Assembly: GCF_963169125.1 (NCBI RefSeq)
Contig: NC_084793.1
Location: forward strand, 219,878,652 to 219,942,651
Direction of reading: 5' to 3'
Length of the DNA stretch: 64,000 nucleotides
DNA from: Humulus lupulus
Lineage: Eukaryota; Streptophyta; Magnoliopsida; Rosales; Cannabaceae
Shown here piece by piece: positions 18,215 to 44,545 of this stretch (positions within the stretch are counted from its first letter, which is position 1; each line of letters starts with the position of its first letter). The notes under the pieces are model-generated. The model made no database searches. It worked only from the letters and a program-made list of their open reading frames with translations, and had not been told where the DNA came from. Made by a program: the position numbers and the translations under genes.

Positions 18215-18690
18215 AAGAATTTCGGCCCCAAAATTTACTTATCAAACAATTCCGGATACCGATCGAACATGTCTTCCTCCAACTCCCACATTGCCTCCCG
18301 TTCAGAACTATTTCTCCATAGGACTTTGACTATCAAAAACTCTTAGACCGTAATTCTTTCATCCCTCTATCTAGGATGCTAATCGGTCGTTCCTCGTAAC
18401 TCAAGTCTTTCTGGAGTGCTATCGTATCGTACTTGAGGACGTGAGATGGGTCTGACACATATTTATGCAACATCGAGATGTGAAATACATTATGAATATC
18501 TGCTAAAGCTGGCGGTAGGGCTAACCTATATGCAACTGCTCCCGCTTTGTCCAATATCTCAAAAGGACCTATAAACCTGGGACTAAGCTTGCCTTTCTTC
18601 CCGAACCGCTTCACACCTTTCATATGAAATATTCTTAAGAAAACTTGATCTCCGACTTTGAATTCCACATCACGCCGCACAGCATCCGCA
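18215..18690 (-). pseudogene. Gypsy integrase C-terminus and chromodomain-like tail
   Basis: The open part 18680-18333 contains KLSPRFIGPFEIL (the GPY/F module) and IHNVFHISMLHKYV, then DLSYEERPISILDRG. After a frame break, 18330-18215 reads KVLWRNSSEREAMWELEEDM, the tail that in Tekay/Del chromoviruses overlaps a chromodomain used for chromatin targeting. The position, just before the polypurine tract, fits the end of pol. The frame is broken near 18335. Confidence 0.85.
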
Positions 18691-18997
18691 TAACTTTTCT
18701 AACGGCTTTGAGTAGCGAGTATACGCTTTCTAATCAGCGCTACTACATCCTGAGCTCCTCTAACAGCTTCAGGTCCAAGTACTTTCCTTTCTCCTACCTC
18801 GTCCTAATGCAACAGCGATTGACCCTTCTTCCATAAAGTAGCTTGTAGGGTGCCATCCTGATTGTTGACTAGTAGCTATTGTTGTAGGAGAATTCTATCA
18901 GCGGCAAATACTTACTCCAAGATCTCGATGTAAACACCGATCCTCTATCGAATACTATTTTCTTAGAGATTCTATGCAATCATACTAGTTCTTAAAC

Positions 18998-19495
18998 TTA
19001 AACATTTGCGTATTGATCTGTTGTGTACGAAGTCTTAACAGACAGGAAATGAACTGACTTGGTTAATCTATCTATTACTATCCAAGCTGAATCATGCTGC
19101 TTACTTGTTCGTGGCAAACTCGTCACGAAATCTATGGCTATATCATCCCATTTCCATTTTGGAATGATAAGTGGTTGCAATAAGCCTGCAGGCCACTGAT
19201 GTTTTACTTTCACTTGCTGGCATACCAAGCATTTAGACACATACTCTGCTATATCTTTCTTCATTCCTAGCCACCAATATAACACTTTAAGGTCGTGAGT
19301 CATCTTGGTCGACCCTGGGTGAACTAAGTATGGTGTATTGTGCGCTTCTTCTAAAATCGTCATCTTAATCCCTTGATCGTTTGGCACGCATACCCGATCC
19401 TTATATCTTAATAACCCTTGACTTGATATTGAGAAATCTGTGGCCTTCCCTTTTCTAACTGCATCCATATGTGTTACTAACGTGTCATCATGCAC
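18998..19495 (-). pseudogene. Gypsy integrase, zinc-binding and core start
   Basis: 165-aa open segment. The HHCC zinc-binding region is visible (EEAHNTPYLVHPGSTKM ... YVSKCLVCQQVK), followed by WDDIAIDFVTSLP with the first Asp of the D,D-35-E triad and WIVIDRLTKSVHFL with the second. Reading ends before the catalytic Glu. The strand between 18690 and 18998 has frameshifted integrase sequence. Catalyses insertion of the cDNA in active relatives; this copy is broken. Confidence 0.88.
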
Positions 19496-19499
19496 TTGC

Positions 19500-20340
19500 C
19501 CATTCTGTATATCTTCTAACAGGCTTGACTGGATGGACTAGTTCGTCAGGTTACCAATGACTACTTCTATTCCAGCATTGATCAGCTCCTGCTGTAGCAA
19601 CTTTTCTATTCCAGCTAATGATGCTAGACTTCCGTAATTCTTCTTACTTAGCGCATCAGTAACTACATTTTCCTTAAGGCGTAGGCTATCACCTTATCAT
19701 TCTACATCATCACACAACCCAATCCTTGCTTTGATGCATCACAATAGACTACAAACTTATCATTGGGTGTCGGTACACAAAGTACTGGTGCTGAGCATAT
19801 ACTTGAGCAACTGGAAACTCTCTTCACACTTATCCGTCCAGTTGAACCTTTGCTGCTTCTGGGTCAGGTTGGTAAGTGGAGTGGCTATCTTAGAAAAGCC
19901 TTCTATAAACCTCCGGTAATAGCCTGCTAGTCCCAGCAAACTTCTTACCTTAGACGCGTTCTTTGGTCTTGGCAAATCTTTACAGTCGCTACCTTAGATG
20001 GGTCTACCGCAATCCCGTCCTTGGATACTATGTGGCCGAGAAATGCTACTTGTGAAAGCCAAAATTCACACTTCTTGAACTTGGCGTAAAGCTGATGCTC
20101 CTTTAGTCGCAGCAAGATCAACCTTAAATGTTTCTCATGCTTGACTTTATCCTTTGAGTACACCAAGATATCGTCAATAAATACTACGATGAATTTATCC
20201 AAGTAGTCCTTAAAGACCCTATTCATTAAATCCATAAACGCGGCTGGAGTGTTGGTAAGACCAAAAGACATAACTAGAAACTCATAATGTCCATAACGAG
20301 TTCTAAAAGCTGTCTTGGGAATATCCTATTCCCGTACCTT
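19500..20340 (-). pseudogene. Gypsy reverse transcriptase (C part) and RNase H remnant
   Basis: Segment 20271-19945 carries [12 protein letters not shown] and [13 protein letters not shown], in which FIDD is the gypsy form of the YxDD catalytic motif and retains both Asp residues. Directly upstream, [15 protein letters not shown] is readable to about 20325, where a stop follows SGYHQLKVRE. Segment 19975-19760 is the connection domain (RSLLGLAGYYRRFIEGFSKI). RNase H beyond 19760 is degraded by frameshifts and stops. Confidence 0.88.
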
Positions 20341-20820
20341 GAGCTGATGATACCCGGACCATAGATCAATCTTTAAAAACACGGTCGCTCCTCAGAGTTG
20401 ATCAAACAAGTCGTCAATCTGGGGTAGTGGGTACTTATTCTTAATTGTCACCTTATTCAGCTCGCAGTAATCTATACACATCTGCATGCTTCCATCCTTC
20501 TTCTTCACAAATAGTACCGGTGCTCCCCATAGCGAATGGCTCGTTCTAATGAAACCCAAGTCTAAGAGTTCTTCTAACTACATCTTTCACTCCTTCAGTT
20601 CGGTAGGAGCCATCCGGTATGGTGCCTTGGAGGTAGGCTCAGTGCCCGGTACTAATTCGATTGTGAAGTCAATTTTTCGCATCGGCGGCAATCCTAGCAA
20701 GTCGTCAGGAAATACCTCTAGAAATTCCCTTACAATATGTACATCTCCGACCTTTAGTGGTGTTCCTTTTACCATATGCGTAACGCTAGCTAAGAATGTG
20801 TGACATCCTTTTTCTATCAT
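20340..20820 (-). pseudogene. Gypsy reverse transcriptase, N-terminal part
   Basis: Segment 20820-20587 reads ...VREFLEVFPDDLLGLPP... followed by IDFTIELVPGTEP, the standard start of Ty3/gypsy RT. A stop at about 20584 and a later frame change separate it from the palm domain. Frame recovery between 20586 and 20340 shows fingers/palm sequence (L-R-G-A-T-V-F-K-I-D-L type) with substitutions. Confidence 0.82.
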
Positions 20821-20823
20821 CCT

Positions 20824-21200
20824 CTAAGCTTTGAGAGATGAAATAAGCGGCATATGTAATCCTAAAACTTTTCCTATATAGCATCGTTTCTGATCGTCAA
20901 GAGTCTCGAACATCACTTTCTTACGTCTGCTATCGATGGTTGTGACATGCCTTGCTAGCCCGTCCATGCCTAATATCATGTCGAAGTCTTTGATCTCTTG
21001 TTCTATTAGGTCTTCTTCTAGTTCTACGTTCTCAATTTTGATCAGTACGCCTCGTACTATCCGTGATGATAGGAAAATTTTACCCGAAGGCAACTATGTC
21101 ACAAACCTAGTTCTACAAGGTTTGTCTAATTTCTCTATCATTCCTAACGAGATATACGAGTATGTTGCTCCCGAATAAAACAATACTAGAACATATACTA
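20824..21200 (-). pseudogene. Gypsy aspartic protease remnant
   Basis: The segment 21093-20824 contains DFDMILGMDGLARH and the IDSRRKKVMFE strand typical of the C-terminal half of gypsy proteases. The active-site loop lies at about 21180-21150 in another frame, where it reads YSGATYSYIS, so the catalytic Asp of D-S/T-G-A has become Tyr. A stop codon follows at about 21102. Catalytically dead on two counts. Confidence 0.82.
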
Positions 21201-22513
21201 TCGAGGATAGGAATCTGACCTGCAATTGCTTTGTTACTAGCGTTAGCTTCTCCTTGGGTTAAGACAAATGCCCTGGTAGGAACCATCGTATTGTCCATTT
21301 TCTCCTCTTGGTTGAGCTGGGGACACTGCCTCCTTCGGTGACCTTCCTGACCATAGTTGAAGCATCCCTTGATGTTTGCATGACATTCCCCAAGATGTTT
21401 CTTTTGGCACTTAGAGCATTGCGGGTATTCTAGATAACCTGACTTATTTCCTTCGTTGATTATTCGTGCTCTTTTATCACCATTGGCCTGCTTATCATCA
21501 GGATGCCTTCTCTTTTGACCATTACTATTACTATTGCTATGCTGACGGCTGTTGTTGTGGTTGTTCCGACCATTCTGAGGTTGACCCTGTTGTTTACGCT
21601 CAGGCATACTAGCCTTCTCCTTACTAACATTCGCCTAAAACCTTTATACTTTTATTTCCGTTTCTAGAACATCGGTATAGGTAGTATTTCCCGGGTTTGC
21701 TAGCTTAACCCCTAATTCAATCTTTTGTCTAAGTCCTCTAACGAACTTGGTCACCCTCATAAAGTCAGTTGGAACCAACTCTGGTGCAAACTTGGCTAAT
21801 CTGTCGAACTGCCGAGCATATTCTACTACCGATAAGTTGCCCTGCTTCAAACTAGCGAACTCTTTGACCCTTGTAGCGATGACTGCCGAGTTGTAATACT
21901 TTTTGTGGAACAGCTCCACAAATCTTGTCCATGTCATGGTACCGACATCGTTAGTCTGCTGAACTAAGTCCCACCATATTCTAGCATCCTTCTTAAGCAG
22001 AGACGAAACACAGGATATGCGGTCCGCATTGCCGAGATACATATGCGCTAGGATCGGCTCTACATTTCTGAGCCATTCTTCTACCTCAAAGGGGCCTGTT
22101 GTCCCTTCAATGTTTAGAGTGTGTTGCTTACGAAACCACTCATAGATTGGCTCCATGTGCTGAGCTGGGTATGGCGCATAGTTCGCCATTGGCCATCCCC
22201 CATAAGGACCTACTTGATGGGGTACTTGAGCCATTTGCTGAGGCTATGGTTGCAGCTGAGGTGGAAGCTGAGTCTGAGTTTGCTGTCGCTGTTGCTGCAG
22301 TAATTCCTCCACTTGTTGTCGTAGTCATGCAATTTCTGTAGTGTTGTCAACCGGTGGCAGCAGCGCTCTTTCTTTAGCAGCAGCATTGGTTGCACGCCTT
22401 CCCCTTATGTGAACTGGAGGGGCTTCATAAGTTTCAGGAGCAACGCTTGAGGCATTGGCGTTGTTGCGAGCAAATCTTCTAAGCGATATCTTCAGCAAAG
22501 TTCTAATAGTCAA
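21200..22513 (-). pseudogene. Gypsy gag with defective zinc knuckle
   Basis: Gag probably starts near 22513 or a nearby Met. The capsid region is 22234-21644 (EEWLRNVEPILAHMYLG, ...ARIWWDLV..., the retrotransposon gag domain). A stop separates it from the nucleocapsid part at 21607-21200, which is rich in Gln/Asn/basic residues (HNNSRQHSNSNSNGQKR). The zinc knuckle reads CFNYGQEGHRRRQC, so the second Cys of CX2CX4HX4C is replaced by Tyr. Another frame change lies near 22325. Would package genomic RNA in an active element. Confidence 0.87.
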
Positions 22514-22752
22514 GGAAACATATTAGAACTTACCCTAATAGGCTCTAAGGCAAAAACTTAATCTAAGCAAACATAACTCGGACCTATTAATTATGATTTC
22601 TTATGAAAAAATGATGTAAGCCTTCTTTATGATTAAGGCCTGTTTCTAAACTTAGAAAAATAAGCCATCTTTATAATTACGAAGTCTGTTTCTAATCATC
22701 CTATATGACTTAATTCTCAGGCTCGAAACTTGTTGTTGTTCCAAAGTTAACC

Positions 22753-22818
22753 ATATTGAGGGAGGGCTGGGATCAGTAAAATCGTTCCCACTACTATGGC
22801 CCCCTAAACTCTCAATAT
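22753..22818 (-). ncRNA. Leader hairpin of the gypsy element, shared with copia
   Basis: On the sense (minus) strand an 8-bp closing stem (ATATTGAG ... CTCAATAT) encloses a core with TAGGGGGCC, then GTAGTGGGAAC, then TACTGATCCCA and CCCTCC. It sits about 240 nt upstream of gag and 360 nt after the PBS. The same core with a different closing stem is at 38014-38081. The function is unknown; a packaging or dimerisation element is an inference. Confidence 0.65.
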
Positions 22819-23174
22819 AGAACCCGGTTCATTGATTTGTATCCACCCTCACCGAACTTGGTCATTACTTATTAAATTTATTATTTATTATGATTGTAAA
22901 AAAAATCAAACTCATACATGTCATTCAAAAATAACAATGATATTTATTTGGAAAAAAAAGTTTTCACTATGTACAATCATAAATGCGAAGATAATAAATA
23001 AAATAAATAACGAAAAATAAACTACTTTACAAACATTCTTAACTGAAAACATAAGGGCTAAAACGTTAACTAAACACATAATCATAACAACTATAACATA
23101 AACAACTTACATTGGCGGTTAGATTCGGAGCTTGAGCATTTGTATCAAGGAGAACTTCATGTAAATGGACAGTT

Positions 23175-23186
23175 GCTCTGATACCA
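23175..23186 (-). other. Primer-binding site, initiator-Met tRNA
   Basis: The minus strand reads TGGTATCAGAGC, the 12 nt complementary to the 3' end of plant initiator-Met tRNA, two nt inside the 5' LTR (which ends at 23189 on this strand). Confidence 0.93.
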
Positions 23187-23188
23187 AC

Positions 23189-25271
23189 TGTAATGACCCA
23201 ACTATTTCTAAGACCTTGGACCATTAGATTTACTATACATAGCTACTATTTTTGGAAAGATACATAAGAAATAATATAACTTTATTAAATCTCGAAATAT
23301 TGTATCAAATACATAATAATAGAAATTATGGCATGGACTCGTTGATTAAAACATAAAACAAAATTTTAGACTAAAGAAAATTGTTTACAAAACTAAATGT
23401 GGAAAAATATGATTTAAAAGACTAAAAATAAATAACTTTATCCTCGATCGACACGCAGTCCACACATTCCATCCATCCTCAACACACAAGCCAAGCTCCC
23501 AAGAATCCTTCTGCCTTCCATATTCATTTTCCTTCATCACACTAAAAATAAAGGAATGAAACTAATGCCCAGCAAGGAAAAACTACTAACATCATAAACA
23601 TACACATAAAGTCATATCATAACATATGAAAAAAAACATATTATAAACATATACTATAAGCAAACAATAAACATATATCATATACTACTACAATGGACAT
23701 TATACTACTTGGGGCTTGTAAACTAAACAAGTCATATGCCCAATAGATTGGTGAGGCTTGCTAGTCAAGCAAGTCATATGCCCATAAATTATTAGGGCTT
23801 GCTAGCTAGATAAGTCATATACCCAAGGTCTAATATCATACTATACATAATGTTGACATATCATAACACAACATAAGATAACATAACATATAACATAAGC
23901 ATAACATATCATATAAGCATACAAAATTCTATCCTATTTTCCTTACCAACACCGGGATATTTGAGAACAAAGACGGGATTTGGAACACTCCTAAAACCAA
24001 CAATACAAATGATGAGTATTTCTAAAGAATAAAGAATGAAAAGACTAGAACTAAACCACCAAGAGAAAACTTATCGAAGAGACACCTTAAGTTCAAAGAA
24101 CTTAAAAACCTAACCACAAAACCATAAAAAAAGTTAGAACCTAAATAAAAACTAATGAAACTAAGGAATCAAACATGATTGAACTTAAGAATAAGGATAC
24201 CTTTGTTGACCTTATAGATTGGCCTAACTCCAATATTGAAATACTCTAATCCTTACACTCCAAGTGTTTGGTAAAGCTTAAGAATGATAAGCCTTTTTTT
24301 TTTCCTTTCCCACCCAAGTGTATCACTCTTATGTTCTCACTAACACCTTGGAGTATGATCATAGCTGAAGAGTAAGTGAAAGGGCTGGGTTCTAAGTCCT
24401 ATTTATAGAGTTCTAGGAATAAAGATCTTCTTTTTGGCTTTGAATAAAAATAATGAATTTAATTGAAAATATTTGAATATTCTTTAGTCAAAGGCTTAGG
24501 ACTTGGTCAAATTTTTTGGAGAGAGGTTTAAGGAGTCAAAGCTTGATTTTTAAAATTAAAAACAAATAGAATCCTAACTTCTAACTCCCTAAATCTCGTA
24601 ACTCTAAACTCACTTACAGAAAAATCAAGATAACTAGAGCTATATGACTTCGATTTAGACCATCTTTATACCGTTAGAAAGATAATTCAATTATCTACAA
24701 CTTTATAGAAATATTATTTTTCGAAATTCATAACATAACTGGGTCAAAAATAGGTTGGAAGTTACAATACTCTAAAGTTACGGAAAATCTATTTAATTAT
24801 CTAAATAACAACCTAATCTACAAATAAATAAAATTGTGACAAATGTCATGCTCCTAATAGATTCTGGTGAAGACTAAGTCTTATATTTCCCTTATTTTAT
24901 CATTAAAATAATAATTCCTTAATAATCATGCATATGAAAAGTGTCATAATCCTATTGGCTCTATCTAAACCTTAGGAATAATCATGCTCATGACAAATGT
25001 CATATTCTTATTGGCTCTATCTAAACCTTAGGTTATAATAATTATCATATTAATAACCAGAAATATTAATCAAACCTTATGTTATAATTAATATTCTTAA
25101 ACTATAGGTCAAACTTATCAAATCCATAACTATTGCTAGGAGTTTCCAACTAAGTCCTGGTTTGAACCAAAATCTACGAAATCTAACATACTACAAACTA
25201 ATACTAGATATTGCTACTACTACTACTACTACTACTATCTAACTAGCTAAGTAAAATTCTGGGACTCTACA
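23189..25271 (-). repeat. Gypsy 5' LTR (right)
   Basis: 2083 bp, TGTAATGACCC to GGACTCTACA. The uninterrupted copy; it carries the three 47-bp units at about 23711-23840 and a (CTA)n microsatellite at 25214-25237 that is longer than in the partner. Confidence 0.93.
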
Positions 25272-26210
25272 CTTATTAATTCCTCGTGACTCCACTATAA
25301 ACTCGGAATTACACTCTTGAATTCATAGAACGCTCTATAACAAATATAGATACACTATTAATTTTCCATCGTTACAACCATAATTGTCACTCTATCCTCT
25401 ATAGACGGTCTACAATGAGATAGGACTAAAATACCGTTTTACCCCTCATTGTATTTTATCCTTAAAACACTTGGTTCTTTGTAAATGATATTTTAGTAAA
25501 CTAATTTAATTACTGAAATGAGATCTCTATCATTTTAACACCTTGAACCAAACTAAAAGGAAACCAGCATTTCACTTCTTCATCAGAAGCTATAGATGTT
25601 CATATCTATGATTAACACTCCCACTCAATTATACTACCGAGTTCCCAAGATGAAAGTATGGGCTAGCCTGTAGGGTAAGCTGGTAACGAACAAGTCAAAG
25701 AACTCAAATAATACAATCAGTTAGAATACTAACCACTCAAAATTGAGATTGAATTGACCTATGGTCAACTATATGATATGACTAGAGTAGATAATAACGG
25801 TATGTTTACTTATCTTATCAACTGTCAATATCAGTCCAGTCCGATGTAACAAATACATCCGATCTTATCTACTTTGCTAATGTTCTGGAAAGAACATAAC
25901 ACTATAATGTGTAAGTAGATCATATCGTAGATTGGCAAGTCAGTGTAAATCCTGTGCACTGAAAAATCTTAGGACTAACCTATTTTGAACATATAACCAT
26001 ATTTATATTCCACTGTGATTACGTCACTATAAATAATATTAGCTATATGCTCGGAATTTAATAGAAGATTATATTAAACAAATAATCATGAAAATAAAAC
26101 ATGTGTACAAAGTGATTGACCAAGTCAAAAAAATGATTTCTATTCTTTTATTGATAATAAAATGAGATTACAAAGAATTTGGATTTTAATTAGGGCATAA
26201 AACCCCAACA

Positions 26211-29669: not shown

Positions 29670-31571
29670 TGTAGAGTCCAAGAACGTTACTTAGCTAGTT
29701 AGATAGTAGTATTATAGTATTTATAGCATTATCTTTGTAACTGTGGATTTTTTATTCAGACCGGGAATTATTTGGACACTCATAGTAGTACTTATAGATT
29801 TTCTAAGTTTAACCTATAGTTTAAGAATATTAATGTTAACCTAAGGTTTGATTATATGACTGATATTAAGGATAATATTTATTATACTATAAGGTTTAGA
29901 TAAGGACCAATAGGATTTTAAGCACATGTTATGTATGGATGATTAAGGATTAAGTATTTTGAGGATTAAATTTAATAAGGGTAAAAGTTTGAATGCTATA
30001 AGGTCAGTCAGCAGCTTTGAATACATTGAGGGCTTAGTCAAGGCTGTTTACTCCATTCAAACTTAGCTAAAAATGTGTAATTTCGTGTTTAATTAATCAG
30101 TGTGTGCTGATATATCGCAGCTATATGGGGCGATATATCGCAGCATGTAGATACGGAAAACACGAGACGATGGACGACAGCCTCGGGCATACTGGCCCAG
30201 GCGATATATCGCCTACAGGGGGCGATATATCGCCTCCTTCAGCATATTTTGAAACATTTTGAAATCGTTTTCCATTCAGCCATTCAACCTCTTGATAAGT
30301 CCAGCATCTTTTTGAACGAATCTTCAGCCTCTGCTAAACGATAATTCAAACTATTTTCACCTAAAAAGCTATTATTTTTATTCAAGTAAAATTAAGATCC
30401 TTTCATTCATAAACTCTATAAATAGGACCTAGTACCCAGCCATTATTCATCTTTTGCTCTAAGTTCAGAGGCTGCAAGTGCTAAGTGAGTGTGAGAGTGT
30501 AAACACCTGGGTTGGGGAATCATAAGCTTGATCATCATAAGCTTATCAAACACTTTGGGAAGTAAGGTTTTATAGTATTTCGGTTTGAGGTGTAGATTGG
30601 TCTTACAAGTCTCCAAGGTAACCCAAAACTCTAGTTCAATTCTGTACTTTTCTTTCAAGTCTCCTAGTCTTCTACTCAGCCTCTAACCTTAATTTTTATT
30701 TTGGTTAGGAAATCTAAGTTCTTGAGCAAAAAGGTTTTGGTAATTATGTTTCTCAAAGGTTTAGTCCTTCCATTCCTTTCATTTCTTTTTCTTCAAATCT
30801 ACTCACCCTGTTATATATGGTTTTAGGAGTGTTCCAAAAGTCCCAACTCTGTCCTCATATCCCGGTAACTTTGGTAAGGAAATAGGATAAAAATTCATAT
30901 GTTATCTTATGTTTCTTATGTTATGATAAGTGTTATGATATGTATGTTTGTAGGCTTGGGCATATGACCCATATGACTAACAAGACCCCAAATAGATTAT
31001 GGGCATATGACCTGCTTAGCTAGTAGGACCCCACTAATCTCATGGGCATATGACTTGTTTAGTCTATGGGACCCCAAGTAATAATGGCCATTATAGTATG
31101 TGTATGATAAAGTGTTATGTTAAGTTTTTATGTTTCTTATGAAATTATGTATATGAACTATGTGTTAGATTTTTCCTTGCTGGGCATTAGACTCATTCCT
31201 TTTTGTTTATATGTGCAGGAAAATAGCTATAGTGGCGGTAAGATTCATGGATGCTTGGGAGAATGTGTATCGGTGGTGAATGGAGTCAAGGAGTCGAGAG
31301 TTCGATTTTCGAGGATGTACTCTTGTTTTACCTTTTTTATGGTTTCACATGTATTTTTCCGCACTTTCTATGTAACTCCTTTTCACTTTAACTTATGTTT
31401 TGTTTTAAAGACAATGGGATCCCATACCCTACTTGATATTTTATGAGAGTAATTTCTATTTCTACAAGTTTCTAATAAATTTATGGTATTTTCGCAAATG
31501 TAAGTTTTATTAAGGATTTGTATGTATAGTTTCGTTAATGGTCCAAAAGTCTAGAGTAGTGGGTCATTACA
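29670..31571 (+). mobile_element. Solo LTR, 1902 bp, of the gypsy family at 13771-25271 (level 3)
   Basis: Starts TGTAGAGTCC and ends TGGGTCATTACA, with perfect TSD GAAAA (29665-29669, 31572-31576). It is homologous along its length to the complement of the gypsy LTRs (TTACTTAGCTAGTTAGATAG at the start; three roughly 47-bp ATGGGCATATGAC units at 30955-31085; TTGCTGGGCATTAGACTCAT at 31176). No internal domain. The CACTA frame continues when it is removed with one TSD. It differs from the resident gypsy LTRs by a cluster of GCGATATATCGC palindromes at 30106-30235. Confidence 0.92.
30106..30235. repeat. GCGATATATCGC palindromic iterons
   Basis: Four copies of (G)CGATATATCGC or a one-base variant occur at about 30110, 30130, 30202 and 30221, some extended to a longer perfect palindrome GGCGATATATCGCC. 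They are absent from the two gypsy LTRs of the same family. Confidence 0.88.
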
Positions 31572-31576
31572 GAAAA

Positions 31577-32870: not shown

Positions 32871-33901
32871 CAACACACCTTACTATATACTAAAAATAAA
32901 ATTGTAACATCCCAAATTCCCTAATATGGCTTAGTGCCTGGATTAGGGGGCCAGGAGGGCCATAATTGATTTAATGTGTTATTATGTGATTATGTGCGTT
33001 GTATTATTATATGACTATGTTTGCATATACGTGGGTCGTTTCTTATAAGAAGGGTATTTTTGTAATTTTGGAATGTTGAGGGCATATTTGTATATTTATG
33101 TGCATGTATGTGATATATGGGTGAGGCCACATTATTATGTGGATGTATTTGAGCTATTCGGCATGAAACAATCCTAGGAAGCAAGTTAGCGCTTTGGTCA
33201 TAACGAGGTCAATTACTGGGCTCGGGGTGAGCCTAGGGGTGACATTATCGATATTGGGTAATGGGGAAATTATTTGGTAATTATTTGAGGATATTGGAAT
33301 TAACGGGAATTGTGAGACAATAATTATGATTAACAGGATAAGTGGCAAATGACAAAATTACCATTGAGGGCTTAAATGGGCAAGGTGTAGGCTAAGGGGC
33401 ATTATGGTCATTTTGGTGCCAAGTTAGTGACTTATCACTCTTTCCCTCAGCAAAAGGAAACCTCACAGCAGCAAAACAGAGCATTCCCTCCCTCTCTTTC
33501 TCGGCTAGCTCTCTGTCTCTCTATCTTTTGGAAGTTTTTATTGAAAGCTTGGGTTTTTGAAGGATTTGAGCCAGGAACTTGTTAGGGTGAAGCTAGGAGG
33601 CCATTTCAACTATTAAGGTAATTATTTTAACCTTTGATTCCCTGAGTTTGTGAGTTTTCTGGTAGTGTTCTTGGGCTGTTCTTGAGCTTCAAAACTCAAG
33701 TATTGATTTTGAGTATTAATGGTGTTTTGATTGTGTTTGAACTTGGGTTTTGATGAGGTTGATGTATTGATGAAGTTTTGGGGTTAAATTATAAGTTTGG
33801 ATGGTGTTTAGATGAGGTTTTCATTATTAGAACTCAGGGGAAAATGCAGGGGAAGAACCAAAAGGTTCTGGGGTGTAGAGTGTTGGGGTTTTATGCCCTA
33901 A

Positions 33902-34676
33902 GAAAGGTCGTCTACCGTCCCACCATGGAATTCATCTCTCAAAGAAGCAGTCTCCCCAGACTTCTGAAGAGGAAGATGCAATGAGAAAATTTCCTTACGC
34001 ATCTGCAGTTGGAAGTCTGATGTATGCCATGTTGTGTACTAGACCAGATATCTGCTATGCAGTGAAAGTAGTGAGCAGGTATCAGTCAAACCTAGGACCG
34101 GAACATTGGATAGAAGTTAAGCATATCCTGAAGTATTTGAGACGGACTAGGGATTATATATTAGTCTACAAGGGTGGTGTTCTAAACCCTATAGGCTACA
34201 CCGATTCAGATTTGCAGACTGATGTCAATGATATGAAGTCTACTTCTGGAATGGTGTTTACTCTTGGGGGTGGAGCTGTGATTTGGAGAAGCGTAAAGCA
34301 GTCTGCAATCTCAGATTCCACCATGGAGGCTGAGTACATAGCTGCATCAGAAGCAGCTAAGGAAATAGTCTGGCTAAAGAAATTCTATTCGGATCTTGGT
34401 ATTATTCCAGAAATGGATAAACCGCTTGTGTTGTTTTGTGACAATACAAGAGCGATAGCCAACTTAAAAGAACCTCAAAGTCACAAGAGGAGTAAGCATA
34501 TAGAAAGGAAGTATCACATTATTCGAGAATATGTGGCCAGGGGAGATGTTAAGGTTATGAAGATTGCAACTGAAGACAATCTTGCAAATCCATTTACAAA
34601 GACACTACCAGAAGCTACATTTGATAAGCATATCAAGGTAATGGGATTAGTAGAATTAAGGCATTAGTTTCAATTG
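33902..34676 (+). pseudogene. Duplicated copia pol tail (RT end plus RNase H)
   Basis: The open segment 33981-34667 (228 aa) is about 96% identical by eye to residues 105-332 of the 41668-42666 segment (nine differences). It has the RNase H acidic residues in YTDSDLQTDV, MEAEYIAASEAAKEIVW and LFCDNTRAIA. It lacks all upstream pol and a start, so it is a truncated duplicate, not a gene. Its 3' end runs directly through a polypurine tract into the LTR at 34692. Confidence 0.92.
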
Positions 34677-34691
34677 GTGCAAGTGGGAGTT

Positions 34692-36552
34692 TGTTCGGGT
34701 TTTATGCCCTAATTAAAACCCAAATTCTTTGTAATCTCATTTTATTATCAATAAAAGAATAGAAATCATTTTTTGACTTGGTCAATCACTTTGCTCACAT
34801 GTTTTATTTTCATGATTATTTGTTTATCTAAACTTCTATTAAATCCCGAGCATATAGCTAATCTTATTTATAGTGACGTAAGAACAGTGGAATATAAATA
34901 TGATTATATGTTCAAAATAAGTTAGTCCTAAGATTAGTCAGTGCACAGGATTTACAATGACTTGCAAATCTACGATATGATCTACTTACACATTACAGTG
35001 TTATGTTCTTTCCAGAACATTAGCAAAGTAGAGAAGATCGGATGTATTTGTTACATCAGACAGGACCGATATTGACAGTTGATACGATAAGTAAGCATAC
35101 CGTTATTATCTATTCTAGTCATATCATATAGTTGACCATAGGTCAATTCAATCTCAATTCTGAGTGGTTAGTATTCTAACTGATTGTATTATTTGAGTTC
35201 TTTGACTTGTTCGTTACCAGCTTACCCTACGGACTAGCCCATACTTACATCTTGGGAACTTGGTAGTATAATTGAGTGGGAGTGTTAATCATAGATATGA
35301 ACATCTATAGCTTCTGATGAACATCTATATCTTGTTTCAAGGTGTTAAATGATAGAGATCTCATTTCAATAATTAAATTAGTTTACTGAAATATCATTTA
35401 CAAGGAACTAAGTGTTTTAAGGATAAAATGCAATGAGGGGTAAAACGATATTTTAGTCCTATCTCATTATAGACCTTCTATAGAGGATTGAGTGAAAATT
35501 ATGGTTGTAACAATGGATAATTAATAGCGTATCTATATTTGTTATAGAGCGTTCTATGAATCCAAGAGTGCAATTCCGAGTCTATAGTGGAGTCACGAGG
35601 AATTAATAAGTTAGTAAACTTATTTGTTAGATTTATGATAACTTATTGGAGCTTGATTTCATAGGCCCATGGTCCCCATTGTACCTTGGATAAAATCATC
35701 TAGATAGTCTCAATTAATTGATTTAATTATCAATTAGAATTATCAAAGTTGACCAGGTCAATTTTGGATAGTTTCAAAGAGTTATGTAATTTTGAGAAGA
35801 AAAGATAAATTAGGGCATATTTATTAATTAAGATAAATTGGTATCTAAATTAATAAATAAGTTTAAATCAAGGTTCAAATTATAAATAATTAATTTCATA
35901 AAGGATTTAAATAATTATTTAATTAATTAAATCAATAGAAAATAATGCATTCCTTGATTTTAAGTCCAATGGGCTTATAATCAAATGAGCAATTTCTTAA
36001 GCCTAAAGCCCATTCTAATTTCGACCTAGGGCTTCAAATTGGCTATTATTTTATTTATTTTTTAATTAAATTAAATGGCATAATTGAGTTTATAAAAGGA
36101 GTGCTTAGAGAGAAGTCATCAGTGAAGATTTCTGAGACAACAGACAAGTTTGACAAGTCACAAGTCAGATTTTCTGATAGGTTTTAGATTCTCTCTAAAC
36201 ACAAGTCCTTTTCTAAGCCTCTCAGTTATTTTCTCTTCTTCTCTCTGTATCTATCTCATGTGTTGATAATTTCCCACTCTAGTCTACGTGATTCTAAGGA
36301 TACATTGGAAGATTGTGAAGAAATTAGAAGAAGAGTTCAGTTTCATGATAATACTCTGCGGCAGAAAGGATACAAGAGTTAGAGAAACTGAAGGATGGAC
36401 TCTTTCATTCTGTTGCGTATACTGTAAGTATTCTTATCATTGTTTCTCTTTGAATTCAATTTTAAAAACATGTTCTAGGTTATCTCATATTAATTTGTTT
36501 AATATTAGATCTACATGAAAATAAATAAAGATCATGTATAAATTGCTCAAAA
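34692..36552 (+). repeat. Copia LTR (middle of array)
   Basis: Starts TGTTCGGGTTTTATGCCCTA; the end is about 36552, next to the PBS. It differs from 42691-44540 by roughly 25 substitutions counted by eye, plus a 12-bp indel (AATAATTATTT region at about 35910). The resident CT-rich and TATA-like TATAAAAGGAG at about 36090 indicate a promoter. Confidence 0.93.
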
Positions 36553-36554
36553 AC

Positions 36555-36566
36555 TGGCCTCAGAGC
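36555..36566 (+). other. Primer-binding site, initiator-Met tRNA (degenerate)
   Basis: TGGCCTCAGAGC matches 10 of 12 nt of the canonical TGGTATCAGAGC, directly after the LTR. Confidence 0.75.
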
Positions 36567-37435
36567 ATTTGGTAATCTTTATTTTCATGCATGAACATGT
36601 TTAAAATTGGATTATTTGATGTGTTTGAATAATTGGATGTTTTTTCATGTTTTTATGAAGCATATTGATTTTATGTGAATATTAGCAATTTTTTAGGTTA
36701 TTTTTGTAGTGCTTTCTATGCTATTAATTTTTATATATGCTTTATTTTGTGTAAAACATGTTAAAAATTAATGAGAAAATGGTTTTTGTTTGAAAAATTG
36801 TTCAAAAAAATTTTGAAAAATGCGCACCAGCCCAGCAAATTTTTTATTTTTTTTATTTTAAAGAAAAATAAAATTTGTGGAAATAATTATTTATAATCAA
36901 AGCCAAAATATCAAATTTGTTTTTGTATTTAAAATTGTTTTTTTACAATAAGATATTTTTGTTAGTTGAGATTTAAATAATTAGATATTTTCTACAAAGA
37001 TTCAAATTCAAATTTAAAAATAGACTAACAACTTAATTTTAAATCTTTTAATATATTAAAATATTAGAATTATGATATTAGATATTTAAGATATTTTCAT
37101 TTACATTCTTGATTTTTTTTATTAAATCTTTATTTGAAAATATAAATATCTTTTTATTCTATAGTTTTTTTAATATTTAAATTATTTGAAATTTGAATAT
37201 TGTAAGTTAGATATTTTTATGGATATTTGAATTTGGTTAACTGTTTTGAGATTTTTTAGGATTGTTATAACTATTAATATTTTATTTTATTTTTTAATGG
37301 TTAAAATATTAGCTAATAGTTATAACAACACAAGATATTTTAGAAAATAGTTAAGATATTGATTATAAAATTTAAAATTGGTTAAATTTTGAAAAATATC
37401 ATTTTCTCAACCAATTAATAAAATATTTTTTTAAT

Positions 37436-37482
37436 AAATAGGATTTAAATTAACTTTTGTTAATTGTTGATAAATCCTATTT
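37436..37482 (+). ncRNA. Leader hairpin 1, 47 nt
   Basis: 12-bp stem AAATAGGATTTA / TAAATCCTATTT, then a 7-bp stem AATTAAC / GTTAATT closing a TTTT loop, with a 5-nt GTTGA bulge on the 3' side. Perfect pairing throughout. Confidence 0.8.
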
Positions 37483-37536
37483 AAATTAAATTAATATTTT
37501 TTTTCAAATTAACCTAAAAGCAAGTTGATTGTTGAT

Positions 37537-37583
37537 AAATGAAATTTAAATTAACTATTGTTAATTGTTGATAAATTTCATTT
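37537..37583 (+). ncRNA. Leader hairpin 2, 47 nt
   Basis: Identical architecture to hairpin 1 (12-bp stem AAATGAAATTTA / TAAATTTCATTT, 7-bp stem AATTAAC / GTTAATT, loop TATT, bulge GTTGA). Three neighbouring base pairs are changed on both sides relative to hairpin 1. Confidence 0.8.
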
Positions 37584-38013
37584 CAATTGACTTATTTTTT
37601 GTAAAAATTTAATTAATCTGATTTTTTTTAAAACTCTAGATAATTAATTGTGGTATTTTTGAAAATGAAAATAATTGTGGTATTTTTGCATAAATTCATA
37701 GAATTGCTCATATAGTAACATGATCAGGCCCATCCAATTATAACATATCTGTTTGCACTATATGTGGCATTTTTGCAGTTGGACTTAGATGCATATAGTG
37801 CCTCATATGTTTGTTAGATATGTGGTATTTTTCCAAATAAAATATTCATAAAATGATAGGTTTTATTTGGGCCCATTAGAAAATGTAAAGTTTAAATTCC
37901 TCTCTAGTGGGTGATTCCACTTGTGAAGGCCTATTTGATTTGCATGACTATAATGGCCCTAATCAATTAATAACAATTAATAAAACGAAGGTTTAAATTC
38001 TTGTCTTTTGGAT

Positions 38014-38081
38014 CTTGTATGGAAGATAGGGGGCCTTTGTAGTGGGAACAACATACTGGACCCAACCCTCCTCCATACAAG
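38014..38081 (+). ncRNA. Leader hairpin 3, core shared with the gypsy element
   Basis: The 10-bp closing stem CTTGTATGGA / TCCATACAAG encloses TAGGGGGCC, GTAGTGGGAAC, TACTGGACCCA and CCCTCC. Internal pairings AGGG/CCCT and TGGG/CCCA are possible. The same ordered core is at 22753-22818 on the minus strand. Confidence 0.7.
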
Positions 38082-38879
38082 CCCAATTGTTAAGGCCCAT
38101 TTACCTGAGTTGGACTTAATTGTATAGGTTCATTATATTAGTTAAACCTAAATATTGATTAGCAACAACTTAATTCTAAATTAATTGAATTTGTTTCAAT
38201 GTGACACTTTAGAATCAATAGGAAATTATAGGACTTTGGTTTAAAAAATTTAATCTATTTAATTTTTTTTGGAAAAATCATAGTCATTAATTTTCTAAAA
38301 AAAATAAATTATAAAAGTACTACTTTTAATTTAATAATGAGCTTATTTTAAGAATTTATTCGATCTCCACCATTGGTTTAACATAGTCAATAGCTTAATG
38401 GGACCTCGAGGCGCTTTGATTCGTCCCCCTATGGAAGGTGTTCATTAGTTATTTTGACAAGGTTAGATTTCGAAAGATAGATAATTATAGTTCAAATTCT
38501 AGTAGACTCACCCCTACGGTGACTGCTAGGACTAAATCTATGATTATTGAAACCGTGGGTCTAGCTCATAAAATAAGAGATTTTGTTTTCTTATTTTGAT
38601 CGAATAGTAGGTTGTTAATAGTGGTGTCCATTATTAAATGAGTTTACAACTCTATTTAACTTGTGGTATTTTTTACTCTTGCCAACCGGGACAAGGATAT
38701 CATAGATTTGTTAAAAACCTAAAGAAATAGATATACGATTGTTTTTGGTATTTTTTCTCATATCTTACATATTTTGGTATATATTGTGCTATTTCTTAAA
38801 ATTTGTGCGAATAGAAGTTTTATTGAGCAAATGTGAATGATTTCTATTATATTGATAATTTATAGTTTTAAGTTAAGTA

Positions 38880-39510
38880 GTGCATGTGTATACTCCCATC
38901 CTTTCTCAACTTTCGATGAAGAAACTCACTGGAGAAAACTTGCTTAATTGGAAGCAAAATATCAACATAGCGTTGATTGGTGACAACTTTGAATTCATCA
39001 TGATTGAGGAATCCTCAGAACGAGCATCGTATCCGCACGTTCGTGATGGCAACATCAATACTCGCAATGGCACCATAAATGCTTGGATAGCACCATCTCC
39101 GCACATACGTGATGACACTGTGAATGCTCGAATGGCACCGTGTCGGCACATTCGTGATCAACTCAACTATGGTCTGACGCATCTCATGAACGAGCTTCAA
39201 ATTATTGAACCTATCATGGGCGGACCTAGTAAAGGAGGTGAAAATAAGCTACTGATGTTGCTGCTGATCTAGCTAAGGTTGAAGATAACCCAGCTTCGTC
39301 TTCGATAGCTGGAAACAAGAGGAAGAATGGACAAAACAACAACCCCAAGCCTGCAAAGGCGAGTGCACAACCAAGTGCACAGACGCCTAAGGGGAAGAAC
39401 AAGAAAAACAAGAAAGGTAAAGGTAAGTGTTTTCACTGCAAAGAGAATGGGCATTGGAAACAGGATTGCCCCAAGTTTCTAGTAGCTAAAAACAAAGGTA
39501 ATGATTATAG
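38880..39510 (+). pseudogene. Copia gag, core deleted, zinc knuckle intact
   Basis: The N-terminus has KKLTGENLLNWKQNINIAL, typical of copia gag. Residues about 48-95 are replaced by PHVRDGNINTRN-type repeats in place of the usual capsid core. NELQIIEPIM resumes the normal C-terminal capsid sequence before a stop at 39270. In another frame a basic Lys/Gln/Asn stretch leads to the zinc knuckle CFHCKENGHWKQDC (39428-39469), with all four metal ligands. The frameshift near 39240 splits the gene. Confidence 0.85.
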
Positions 39511-39514
39511 TTCA

Positions 39515-39718
39515 TTTATCTTGGAAACATGTGTTTTAGAGAATGATAAATTCGTTTGGATTATTGATTCTGGATCTATTGACCATGTTTGTAATTCTTT
39601 ACAGCTTCTTGAATCATGGGAGGAAGGGGACAAAGGCAGCTTAAAGCTTAGAGTTGGGAACGGAGCGTTCATTGCGGTCCAAGCTAGAGGAAAGAGCTCG
39701 TCTGAAGTTCGGAAATAA
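39515..39718 (+). pseudogene. Copia aspartic protease remnant
   Basis: WIIDSGSIDHVCNSL carries the D-S-G catalytic loop, although the usual Ala/Thr after Gly is Ser. The strand LRVGNGAFIAVQARG follows, as in copia proteases. The open frame ends at 39716. The following 39719-39840 is frameshifted protease tail. Would cleave gag-pol in an active element. Confidence 0.85.
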
Positions 39719-39844
39719 ATTTTTTAATTTTAAATGATGTCTTTTTCATTCCGAATTTTAGTAGAGATTTAATTTTAGTTTCCATGTTGCAATTAGAATG
39801 ATTTGTTATGACTTTCACAAGCTTTAATATGTCTATTTCTTTCA

Positions 39845-41197
39845 ATGGATCAATTGTGTATTTCATGTTTGGAAAACGGACTTTATATTCTGCGACCTAA
39901 CGAACCCCTCGCTCTTAATAATGATTTATTCAAAGTAGCTAAACCTAGGACCAATAACGATAATATGACGTATTTATGGCACTTGAGACTAGGTCACATT
40001 GGCTATGATAGGATTCAAAGACTTACAAAGGTAGGACCTTTGAGGGAACTCACCTTAGGTAAATTACCTGTCTGTGAATCTTGTCTAGAAGGCAAACTGA
40101 CCAAGCGTCCATTCTCTGCAAAGGGTGATAGGGCCAAAGAACCACTTGGTCTTGTGTATTCAGATGTTTGTGGACCTTTGAATGTACAAGCTAGGGGTGG
40201 TTTTGAGTATTTCGTCACTTTCATTGACGATTACTCTAGATACTCATGTCTTTACCTAATGCATAGGAAATCATAAACATTTTCAAAGTTTCAGGAATTC
40301 CTAGCAATGGCTCAGAACTAATTAAGTAAAACATTAAAGATCTTCCGATCTGATTGGGGTGGAGAATATTTGGATATGCAGTTCCAAGATCATTTAACGG
40401 AACTTGGGATTTTATCACAACTTACTGCCCCAGGTACTCCGCAACAAAATGGTGTAGCGGAACGCCGGAATAGAACTTTATTGGAAATGGTTAGATGCAT
40501 GCTCAGTTACTCAACTCTACCAACTTTGTTCTGGGGACATGCAATTGAAACCGCGAATGAAATTCTTAATGTTGTTCCATCTAAATCAATCCCCAAAACA
40601 CCTTTAGAACGCTGGAATGGTCGTGGATCTAGTTTACGCCATTATAGAATTTGGGGGTGTCTCGCTCACATCCTGAGGAAAAAGGAGGGAAAGCTAGAAC
40701 CACGAATTGAAGTTTGCATGTTTGTTGGCTATCCTAAAGGTACTCGAGGTGGACTTTTCTATAGTAATTCAGAAAAGAAAGTGTTTACTTCTACAAATTC
40801 TAATTTTCTGGAAAATGACTATGTCCAGAACTTTAAACCTCGCAGCAAAGTAGTTTTAGAGGAGATGGTTAAAGAATTGACTCCAACCAATGTTCCATCG
40901 TCATCAACTCAAGTTGGTGATGAAATTCCCACTCTTCATGTCCAACCGACGCAAGTCGATTTAAATGAAGAAAGTATCAATGTTCCTGAGCAAACAGTCA
41001 CGAAGCCTCGTCGTAGTGGGAGGGTTTCTAGGAACCCAGTTCGCTATGGTTTGGATAGTGAAACCAATATGGTTGTTGGTGACACTAGTGAGTATGATCC
41101 GTTGTCTTTCAAACAGGTAATGGCTAGCCCTGAAAAGGAACTATGGCTTGAAGCCATGAAACAGGAAATGGAGTCCATGTACTCAAATTCCGTCTAG
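39845..41197 (+). pseudogene. Copia integrase with gag-pre-integrase domain
   Basis: 39845-40276: LYILRPNEP, then the zinc-binding H/H (WHLRLGHIGYDR) and C/C (CESCLEGK), then DVCGPL with the first catalytic Asp and FVTFIDDYSRY with the second. A TAA at 40274 and a following stop break the frame. 40370-41197 resumes with LGILSQLTAPGTPQQNGVAE, in which the Glu of D,D-35-E is present, the RRNRTLLEM helix, the copia GYPKGTRGGLFY motif and the hinge RRSGRVSRNPVRYG. Stop at 41198 before RT. Confidence 0.9.
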
Positions 41198-42666
41198 GAT
41201 CTTGTGGAAGCACCTAGTGACTTTAGGGCCATTGGGTGCAAGTGGATCTACAAGAAGAAATGAGGTGTTGATGGAAATATCAAGACTTATAAAGCTCGAT
41301 TAGTGGCAAAGGTTTATACCCAAAGAGAAGGCGTGGACTATGAGGAAAATTTTAGTCCGGTAGCCATGCTCAAATCCATTTGCATCCTCTTATCCATAAC
41401 AGCCGCTCTCGACTATGAGATCTGGCAAATGGACGTCGAGATAGATTTTCTTAATAGAAAGCTTGACGAAGTCATTTATATGGATCAACTAGAAGGATTT
41501 AAAGTAGCTGGACAAGAAGGAAAAGTTTGCAAGTTGAATAGGTCCATCTATGGACTTAAGCAAGCTTCTCGTTCCTGAATCTTAGGTTTGATGAAATAAT
41601 CAAAACCTATGGCTTTGAACAAAATATTGATGAGCTCTATGTTTACCAACTGAAGGCAAATCAAATAGTGGTATTTCTGGTTCTTTATGTGAATGATATC
41701 TTACTCATTGGAAACAATGTTAAGAAATTATTAGATGTGAAGAATTGGCTGAGTACTCAATTCCAAATGAAGGATTTGAGTGAAGCAAGTTATGTTCTAG
41801 GTATCCAGATTATTAGGGAGAGAAAGAAAAGACTCTTAGCTCTATCTCAAGCAACTTACATTAATAAAGTGCTTGAATGTTTCTCAATGACAAATTCCAA
41901 GAAAGGGCGTCTACCGTCCCACCATGGAATTCATCTTTCAAAGAAGCAGTCTCCCCAGACTTCTGAAGAGGAAGATGCAATGAGAAAAGTTCCTTACGCA
42001 TCTGCAGTTGGAAGTCTGATGTATGCCATGTTGTGTACTAGACCAGATATCTGCTATGCAGTGAAAGTAGTGAGCAGGTATCAGTCAAACCCAGGACTGA
42101 AACATTGGATAGAAGTTAAGCATATCCTGAAGTATTTGAGACGGACTAGGGATTATATATTAGTCTACAAGGGTGGTGTTCTAAACCCTGTAGGCTACAC
42201 CGATTCAGATTTGCAGACTGATGTCAATGATAGGAAGTCTACTTCTGGAATGGTGTTTACTCTTGGGGGTGGAGCTGTGATTTGGAGAAGCGTAAAGCAG
42301 TCTGCAATCTCAGATTCCACCATGGAGGCTGAGTACATAGCTGCATCAGAAGCAGCTAAGGAAATAGTCTGGCTAAAGAAATTCTATTCGGATCTTGGTA
42401 TTATTCCAAAAATGGATAAACCGCTTGTGTTGTTTTGTGACAATACAAGAGCGATAGCCAACTCGAAAGAACCTCAAAGTCACAAGAGGAGTAAGCATAT
42501 AGAAAAGAAGTATCACATTATTCGAGAATATGTGGCCAGGGGAGATGTTAAGGTTATGAAGATTGCAACTGAAGCCAATCTTGCAAATCCATTTACAAAG
42601 ACACTACCAGAAGCTACATTTGATAAGCATATCAAGGTAATGGGATTAGTAGAATTAAGGCATTAG
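41198..42666 (+). pseudogene. Copia reverse transcriptase and RNase H, catalytic Asp lost
   Basis: 41303-41578 has [20 protein letters not shown] and the palm strand [15 protein letters not shown], then [11 protein letters not shown] and a TGA. 41668-42666 has LYVNDILLIGNN, where the essential YVDD is YVND, followed by the thumb (LGIQIIRERKKR) and RNase H (YTDSDLQTDV, MEAEYIAASEAAK, LFCDN). Stops at 41198, 41262 and 41577 plus the YVND change make it inactive. It ends 24 bp before the 3' LTR. Confidence 0.92.
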
Positions 42667-42679
42667 TTTCAATTAGTGC

Positions 42680-42690
42680 AAGTGGGAGTT
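42680..42690 (+). other. Polypurine tract of copia
   Basis: AAGTGGGAGTT immediately before the LTR at 42691. The same tract occurs at 34681-34691 before the middle LTR. Confidence 0.85.
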
Positions 42691-44540
42691 TATTCGGGTT
42701 TTATGCCCTAATTAAAACCCAAATTCTTTGTAATCTCATTTTATTATCGATAAAAGAATAGAAATCATTTTTTGACTTGGTCAATCACTTTGCTCACATG
42801 TTTTATTTTCATGATTATTTGTTTATCTAAACTTCTATTAAATCCCGAGCATATAGCTAATCTTATTTATAGTGACGTAAGAATAGTGGAATATAAATAT
42901 GAATATATGTTCAAAATAAGTTAGTCCTAAGATTAGTCAGTGCACAGGATTTACATTGACTTGCCAATCTACGATATGATCTACTTACATATTACAGTGT
43001 TATGTTCTTTCCAGAACATTAGCAAAGTAGATAAGATCGGATGTATTTGTTACATCAGACAGGACCGATATTGACAGTTGATAAGATAAGTAAACATACT
43101 GTTATTATCTATTGTAGTCATATCATATAGTTGACCATAGGTCAATTCAATTTCAATTCTGAGTGGTTAGTATTCTAACTGATTGTATTATTTGAGTTCT
43201 TTGACTTGTTCGTTACCAGCTTACCCTACGGACTAGCCCATACTTACATCTTGGGAACTCGGTAGTATAATTGAGTGGGAGTGTTAATCATAGATATGAA
43301 CATCTATAGCTTCTGATGAACATCTATATCTTGGTTCAAGGTGTTAAATGATAGAGATCTCATTTCAATAATTAAATTAGTTTACTGAAATATCATTTAC
43401 AAGGAACTAAGTGTTTTAAGGATAAAATGCAATGAGGGGTAAAACGATATTTTAGTCCTATCTCATTGTAGACCGTCTATAGAGGATTGAGTGAAAATTA
43501 TGGTTGTAACAATGGATAATTAATAGCGTATCTATATTTGTTATAGAGCGTTCTATGAATCCAAGAGTGCAATTCCGAGTCTATAGTGGAGTCACGAGGA
43601 ATTAATAAGTTAGTAAACTTATTTGTTAGATTTATGATAACTTATTGGAGCTTGATTTCATAGGCCCATGGTCCCCATTGTACCTTGGATAAAATCATCT
43701 AGATAGTCTCAATTAATTGATTTAATTATCAATTAGAATTATCAAACTTGACCAGGTCAATTTTGGATAGTTTCAAAGAGTTATGTAATTTTGAGAAGAA
43801 AAGATAAATTAGTGCATATTTATTAATTAAGATAAATTGGTATCTAAATTAATAAATAAGTTTAAATCAAGGTTCAAATTATAAATAATTAATTTCATAA
43901 AGGATTTAATTAATTAAATCAATAGAAAATAATGCATTCCTTGATTTTAAGTCCAATGGGCTTATAATCAAATGGGCAATTTCTTAAGCCTAAAGCCCAT
44001 GCTAATTTCGACCTAGGGCTTCAAATTGGCTATTATTTTATTTATTTTTTAATTAAATTAAATGGCATAATTGAGTTTATAAAAGGAGTGCTTAGAGAGA
44101 AGTCATCAGTGAAGATTTCTGAGACAACAGACAAGTTTGACAAGTCACAAGTCAGATTTTCTGATAGGTTTTAGATTCTCTCTAAACACAAGTCCTTTTC
44201 TAAGCCTCTCAGTTATTTTCTCTTCTTCTCTCTGTATCTATCTCATGTGTTGATAATTTCCCACTCTAGTCTACGTGATTCTAAGGATACATTGGAAGAT
44301 TGTGAAGAAATTAGAAGAAGAGTTCAGTTTCATGATAATACTCTGCGGCAGAAAGGATACAAGAGTTAGAGAAACTGAAGGATGGACTCTTTCATTCTGT
44401 TGCGTATACTGTAAGTATTCTTATCATTGTTTCTCTTTGAATTCAATTTTAGAAACATGTTCTAGGTTATCTCATATTAATTTGTTTAATATTAGATCTA
44501 CATGAAAATAAATAAAGATCCTGTATAAGTTTTCCCAAAA
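42691..44540 (+). repeat. Copia 3' LTR (right end of array)
   Basis: 1850 bp. It starts TATTCGGGTT (TG mutated to TA) and ends TTTTCCCAAAA (consensus CCTAACA), then TSD TAGAG. Confidence 0.92.
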
Positions 44541-44545
44541 TAGAG

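Follow-up and report, generated by a model that had tools for sequence, protein, structure and literature searches.

The leaders of a Ty1/copia and a Ty3/gypsy retrotransposon in the 64,000-nucleotide stretch of Humulus lupulus DNA analysed here (the window) carry the same sequence blocks in the same order, in each case enclosed by a closing stem of different sequence. By direct reading, both leaders follow the arrangement UAGGGGGCC-n3-GUAGUGGGAAC-n4/5-UACUG-nn-CCCA-n-CCCUCC between the two strands of a 10-pair stem, and this shared block motif is real. A sequence-only reading of the window had claimed a core common to copia and gypsy leaders, with block spacing constant to within 1-2 nt. The observation was confirmed: block order is identical in the two copies, which differ by 1 nt in the spacer and 1 nt in the 5′ junction, and a strict pattern built on the blocks gave 2,800 + 2,691 matches (5,491 in all) in the genome searched (2.478 Gb, 121 contigs), with none for the reversed control. 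The motif is a very abundant, probably structured leader module. Its interpretation in the earlier reading was partly supported, and we tentatively suggest that it acts in cis on unspliced genomic RNA as a signal for export and/or packaging, common to the two families by exchange or convergence. Coordinates are collected in Table 1.

Table 1. Motif copies, their component parts and the elements that carry them, in window coordinates.
Feature	Position	Strand	Basis and remarks
Copia LTR common to two tandem copia elements, 5′ LTR of the motif-bearing element	34692..36549	+	TG..CA ends; ends approximate
Copia PBS-like TGGCCTCAGAGC, just past 5′ LTR	36555..36566	+	Alignment of 9 copies; core 1484 nt downstream
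Putative copia leader intron	36572..38865	+	Predicted; G|GTAATC donor-like to AG acceptor-like just before gag; encloses motif
Copia leader motif (Ty1/copia)	38014..38081	+	Direct reading; covariance model, 91.8 bits; pair counts
Copia P1 closing stem	38014-38023/38072-38081	+	CTTGTATGGA with TCCATACAAG, perfect 10 bp
Copia P2	38029-38033/38067-38071	+	GGGGG with CCTCC
Copia core GTAGTGGGAAC	38039-38049	+	
Copia P3	38043-38046/38061-38064	+	TGGG with CCCA
Copia TACTG block	38054-38058	+	
Copia gag-pol region, frames interrupted	38916..42666	+	Pfam zf-CCHC, gag_pre-integrs, SH3_retrovirus, RVT_2
Copia 3′ LTR	42693..44541	+	Self-comparison; ends approximate
Gypsy 5′ LTR	23189..23875	-	Self-comparison; partner LTR 13771-14460, 94.5% identity
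Gypsy PBS TGGTATCAGAGC	23175..23186	-	Core 392 nt downstream
Putative gypsy leader intron	22503..23110	-	Predicted; GTAAGT donor-like, CTAAC branch-like, TTAG acceptor-like, across copies; encloses motif
Gypsy leader motif (Ty3/gypsy), different closing stem	22751..22820	-	Direct reading; covariance model, 84.5 bits
Gypsy gag-pol region, frames interrupted	18333..22489	-	Pfam Retrotrans_gag, Ty3_capsid, RVT_1, Integrase_H2C2, SH3_Tf2-1

A block pattern with gaps of 2-4, 3-7, 1-3 and 0-2 nt and up to 8 substitutions matched twice in the window and never in 20 dinucleotide shuffles, and of 63,932 window positions, 4 can form a 10-pair stem with the copia spacing if pairing is restricted to Watson-Crick, and 17 if G.U pairs are admitted. 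An unfiltered scan with a covariance model built from 19 rows, both window copies included, returned the two motifs at the scores in Table 1 and a third-best hit of 15.5 bits. The perfect copia closing stem described earlier was found exactly as read. Its gypsy counterpart, which had been called equally perfect, is present and slightly wider than first described, with nine Watson-Crick pairs and one U.G in the window; genome-wide, the third P1 pair is a U.U mismatch in 13 of 40 gypsy matches. BLAST at E 1e-10 did not align the copia leader with the gypsy leader, so the motif was not brought in by a recent recombination carrying its flanks.

Pfam domains bear out the assignment of the two elements to their superfamilies (RVT_2 and gag_pre-integrs for copia; RVT_1, Retrotrans_gag, Ty3_capsid and SH3_Tf2-1 for gypsy), and both window motifs lie in sense orientation with the PBS upstream and gag downstream, the core being about 880 nt from gag in copia and about 305 nt in gypsy. 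We take the gypsy PBS to be of the initiator tRNA-Met type. The position between PBS and gag held wherever a PBS was found upstream: among 28 copia and 32 gypsy long copies, a sense motif downstream of a PBS was seen in 42 of the 60 (the sense arrangement alone being sought). PBS and core are 1364-1730 nt apart in copia (12 copies) and 353-860 nt apart in gypsy (30 copies). Gypsy leaders fall into two length classes, with PBS and core separated by about 350-400 nt (5/30) or about 817-860 nt (25/30), and the motif is present in both.

Among the strict matches listed (100, from the first 56 Mb of contig 1), 17 were of the copia type (TACTGGACCC) and 83 of the gypsy type (TACTGATCCC). The earlier expectation of many matches in diverse LTR elements was not borne out, as 198 of 199 matches to four probes for other spellings had the copia- or gypsy-type spelling; the four lists overlap, some places being matched by two probes. 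A pyrimidine after TACTG gave 30 matches (30/30 from the two families; control 0), a probe with CCCTCC broken by a purine two bases past CCCA gave 52 (52/52; control 0), and C or G at the second spacer position gave 62 (62/62; control 0). The probe with a pyrimidine after AAC gave 55 matches, 54 of them from the two families, against 61 for its reversed control, and this pattern is therefore weak on its own. Those 61 matches of the reversed loose core pattern hint at an unrelated repeat family. Surrounding sequence was checked for all 30 places of the pyrimidine-after-TACTG probe, for 5 of the purine-after-CCCA probe (two of which also match the pyrimidine-after-AAC probe) and for 10 of the 62 second-spacer places plus two more, the others being assigned by spelling. 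The ten checked second-spacer places comprised six ordinary copies, a gypsy copy with an internal deletion (L110) and three copies changed after the core. The latter (L113, L117 and L118) are gypsy copies that switch to other sequence immediately past the core; the foreign part of L113 begins CACTACAAGAAA, a start that in our judgement resembles the end of a CACTA transposon.

At the stringency tested, the motif is thus confined to two families, one copia and one gypsy. No third family carrying it was found by the four spelling probes, all of which hold GTAGTGGGAAC fixed and would therefore overlook families whose core has changed. Viral contigs gave no match to the strict pattern or to a GGGGGCC form, and bacterial and archaeal genomes gave no pattern match; a single match to a looser pattern in the viral contigs was taken as chance given the size of the collection. 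No Rfam family reached its gathering score in the window. The best permissive Rfam match to the copia motif was MIR1507, on the antisense strand, at 22.5 bits against a cut-off of 73, and to the gypsy motif mir-287, at 15.1 against a cut-off of 80. This below-cut-off match between the copia hairpin and the MIR1507 precursor model spans 38004-38089 on the minus strand and is probably due to chance, arising from the long stem.

Conservation has no sharp boundary at the motif. Copies fetched by the core show high identity from about -60 to +200 in copia (16 copies) and from about -120 to +100 in gypsy (14 copies), indicating that the motif belongs to a wider conserved leader region; because the core was a fixed part of most fetch patterns, its invariance in such copies is by construction. 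A core-independent gypsy set was therefore drawn through the 3′ flank (3,301 matches, control 0), the flank sequence including the last stem base. In a first set of 20 copies, taken as every fifth among the 100 matches listed, AGGGGGCC, GTAGTGGGAAC and CCCTCC were identical in 20/20 and the exact core was present in 16; TACTG (0.980) and CCCA (0.963) were no better conserved than the 5′ flank (0.964), and the P1 strands scored 0.895 (5′) and 0.980 (3′). A second set of 20 hand-chosen copies, nine of them picked because they were listed without an exact core, had the exact core in 4. Over all 40 flank-found gypsy copies the three blocks scored 0.982-0.988 and the 5′ flank 0.946. In copia, the TAGGGGGCC block, which was not selected for, scored 0.874 and fell below the flanks at 0.915 and 0.946 (30 copies).

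The fold used for pair counts comprises the closing stem P1, a P2 helix of GGGGG with CCUCC containing one G.U, and a P3 helix of UGGG with CCCA, with long loops common to the families. Counts were made on 70 covariance-model matches (30 copia and 40 gypsy) from 69 sources, giving 63 distinct rows. Over all helices, 96.1% of 1,197 cells are standard pairs, against 40.8-60.7% when the 3′ side is slid by 1-3 columns. In P1, seven of ten pairs differ on both sides between copia and gypsy with pairing kept. The suggestion that selection had kept the stems paired agrees with this contrast between families; within them, no common compensatory change was found among the 30 copia and 40 gypsy matches, the only double change being at pair 4 in a single copia row. 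Gypsy P1 variation is one-sided: pair 2 has C or U with G, pair 6 is U.A or U.G, and pair 3 has A or G with U in 26 matches and an unpaired U.U or C.U in 14. Three of five covariation measures, namely paired cells, double-change cells and the covariation score, lay above every one of 500 shuffles. The other two did not exceed chance: seven pairs showed a double change (shuffle mean 6.2), a figure reached by 140/500 shuffles, and the number of pair types was reached by 414/500. The stem test rests on a single evolutionary contrast, copia versus gypsy, in a model-fitted alignment, and the constancy of P2 and P3 is little informative because fetch patterns fixed P3 and partly fixed P2. Two outcomes had been named in the sequence-only reading as counting against it: restriction to two families, which was found, and absence of covariation, which holds within families only.

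Single-sequence folding was only moderately better than shuffles in the sense orientation (copia z -2.3, gypsy z -1.6), and for copia the antisense strand folded better still (-3.6), so folding energy alone is no proof of RNA structure. An H-type pseudoknot pairing UAGU with ACUG was set aside by eye, as its loops seem too short. Within the copia motif, GGGCCTT at 38031-38037 could pair with AAGGCCC downstream at 38092-38098, a possible alternative fold.

Both leaders look like introns enclosing the motif, a feature absent from the earlier reading and firmer in gypsy than in copia. Aligned gypsy copies have a donor-like site, ACCGCCAA(T)|GTAAGT, about 75 nt past the PBS start, and shortly upstream of gag a CTAAC, a pyrimidine-rich run and TTAG; in copies with a PBS, GTAAGT is present in 28/30 and CTAAC..TTAG in 26/30. 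Column identity at these splice-like sites is mostly 0.9-1.0 against a mean of 0.815 (32 copies), which places them at the 77th to 92nd percentile of 9-mers, above average and not unique. Of the 12 copia copies with a PBS, 11 have the donor-like site G|GTAATC directly behind it, and 19 of 28 copia copies have TTTGTAG ahead of gag; the donor-like columns score 0.73-0.87, at the 23rd percentile of 9-mers, and the acceptor-like site lies at the 86th (15 copies). The window leaders are A+T-rich and crowded with ATGs (76% A+T and 38 ATGs in copia; 69% and 19 in gypsy), so that ribosomes are unlikely to reach gag on unspliced RNA by plain scanning. A junction pattern designed to find spliced gypsy insertions gave 0 matches (control 0); since both junction anchors are exact in 9 of 30 gypsy copies, about 30% of such insertions would be detectable. 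This zero fits a spliced RNA barred from replication and equally fits no splicing at all. If the putative introns are removed, the motif would stay on unspliced genomic RNA only.

We consider, as our tentative first choice, that a ~70-nt structured cis-acting RNA signal resides in the leader RNA of two high-copy LTR families, in which a closing stem of variable sequence would present a G/C-rich core that is the same in copia and gypsy. With the order PBS, donor-like site, motif, acceptor-like site and gag, only unspliced genomic RNA would retain the motif, which could mark that RNA for nuclear export and/or packaging. A factor shared by the two families may be the reader; as the Gags are unrelated between copia and gypsy, a host protein would be more economical in this role, and likelier, than two separate Gags. 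The core may have spread by template-switch exchange or arisen by convergence, the stem diverging under a pairing constraint. Our confidence in such a signal on unspliced RNA is lowered by the copia donor-like site, which is not conserved above average. A common host factor predicts further families with the motif, of which none was found. An unlikely extension would make the motif a host-read RNA 'passport', with one core in the leader introns of two superfamilies giving nuclear exit or particle entry; unrelated elements would then compete for or share one host factor.

Retroviral packaging signals (psi) lie downstream of the splice donor and separate genomic RNA from gag mRNA. The motif is similarly a leader RNA, probably structured, between PBS and gag, past a donor-like site that is here predicted, but unlike psi it is common to two superfamilies with unrelated Gags, and its acceptor-like site precedes gag instead of env. 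Another kind of precedent is the RNA transport element, of which the retroviral CTE is one. Mouse IAP and musD elements carry such elements as well (RTE and MTE, respectively; PMC12786077). The hop motif may be likened to RTE, MTE and CTE by description, as a compact and probably structured part of unspliced retroelement transcripts that an export factor of the host may recognise, and by this analogy export is a natural first candidate for its function. The same 2025 review states that no study has directly addressed how plant LTR RNAs are exported, that plants rely on TREX and not on a TAP/NXF1 receptor, and that plant LTR retrotransposons generally lack introns (PMC12786077). In the BARE1/BARE2 system, a plant copia element is reported with RNA in a spliced and an unspliced pool and with conserved signals for dimerisation and packaging, and BARE1 is a precedent for separating genomic RNA from gag mRNA by two such pools; the BARE1 intron differs in being 104 nt long and at the gag/pr border rather than in the leader, and the BARE1/BARE2 account as available describes no core in common with gypsy (PMC3735527). 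Plant retrozymes with hammerhead ribozymes are likewise structured RNAs borne by plant retroelements (PMC4918200), but the motif has no Rfam match at gathering score, hammerheads included. Among titles and abstract openings, no paper on the motif and no such element common to plant copia and gypsy was found, and none of the listed literature matches to the motif sequence string concerned retrotransposon leaders by title.

An open question in plants is how LTR retrotransposons set apart the RNA to be translated from the RNA to be replicated, and how the unspliced form gets out of the nucleus. A 70-nt element present in thousands of copies in two superfamilies would make this separation, and export, testable with reporters, and the leader-intron context provides a testable mechanism. 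Such an element would also demonstrate convergence on, or exchange of, cis-acting RNA signals between unrelated elements.

Several other explanations were weighed against a signal on unspliced RNA. It is possible, though on balance doubtful, that the module was acquired by an old template switch without any shared function and is now a relic. Occurrence in two families only, at the stringency tested, would fit such an exchange, and in Triticeae LTR elements have been proposed to undergo template switching with one another (PMC1950507), yet the stems and flanks differ between the families while the core blocks match and both stems pair; moreover, a relic would lose core and flank alike, but in the 20 flank-selected gypsy copies three blocks are invariant and the flank varies, albeit by a small difference. 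A role in translation, as an IRES, ribosome shunt or enhancer taking ribosomes to gag through a long AUG-rich leader, appears rather improbable to us. The many ATGs of both window leaders favour it, and translation in plant pararetroviruses is described as controlled by structured leaders with short ORFs (PMC5902531), but the unequal core-to-gag distances argue against it and the predicted splicing would take the motif out of gag mRNA. That same splicing could instead be what the motif regulates, its fold slowing removal of the leader intron and thereby setting the ratio of genomic RNA to gag mRNA; we regard this as improbable, for although the motif is inside both putative introns, it lies far from both copia splice-like sites, and leader splicing is itself a prediction.

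The G/C-rich blocks within A+T-rich leaders, the modest sense z-scores and the better folding of the copia antisense strand would suit an element acting at the DNA level, such as a cluster of transcription-factor sites or a palindrome, but the P2 G.U pair, present in 62 of 63 distinct rows, and the gypsy P1 variants, often U.G or G.U, suit a sense RNA, and we consider a DNA-level element very unlikely. We attach the least credence to a self-cleaving ribozyme or an exoribonuclease-resistant RNA: many nucleotides common to the families do lie in the loops of a compact predicted fold, but no Rfam family was matched at gathering score and the permissive matches fall far below it.

The window consists of nested LTR retrotransposons. 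The motif-bearing copia element comes after a truncated copia element with which it has one LTR in common, and self-comparison gave 98.1% identity between 33900-36541 and 41899-44528; the whole of 33879-44541 is a tandem copia pair in an LTR-internal-LTR type arrangement with a common LTR, this identity extending over 2.6 kb. The segments flanking the gypsy region, 12854-13771 and 25267-26210, match the two halves of the copia LTR in reverse, suggesting insertion of the gypsy element into a copia LTR. Within the gypsy element, 16807-18198 is repeated at 23870-25271, beyond the 5′ LTR (1.4 kb, 96% identity), as if a partial second gypsy element adjoined it. Part of another gypsy subfamily occupies 29925-31572 on the plus strand and resembles the sequence upstream of the leader in seven of the genomic copies (L001, L002 and L004-L008). 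An array of direct and inverted repeats at 5045-5391 shows strong self-complementarity on both strands.
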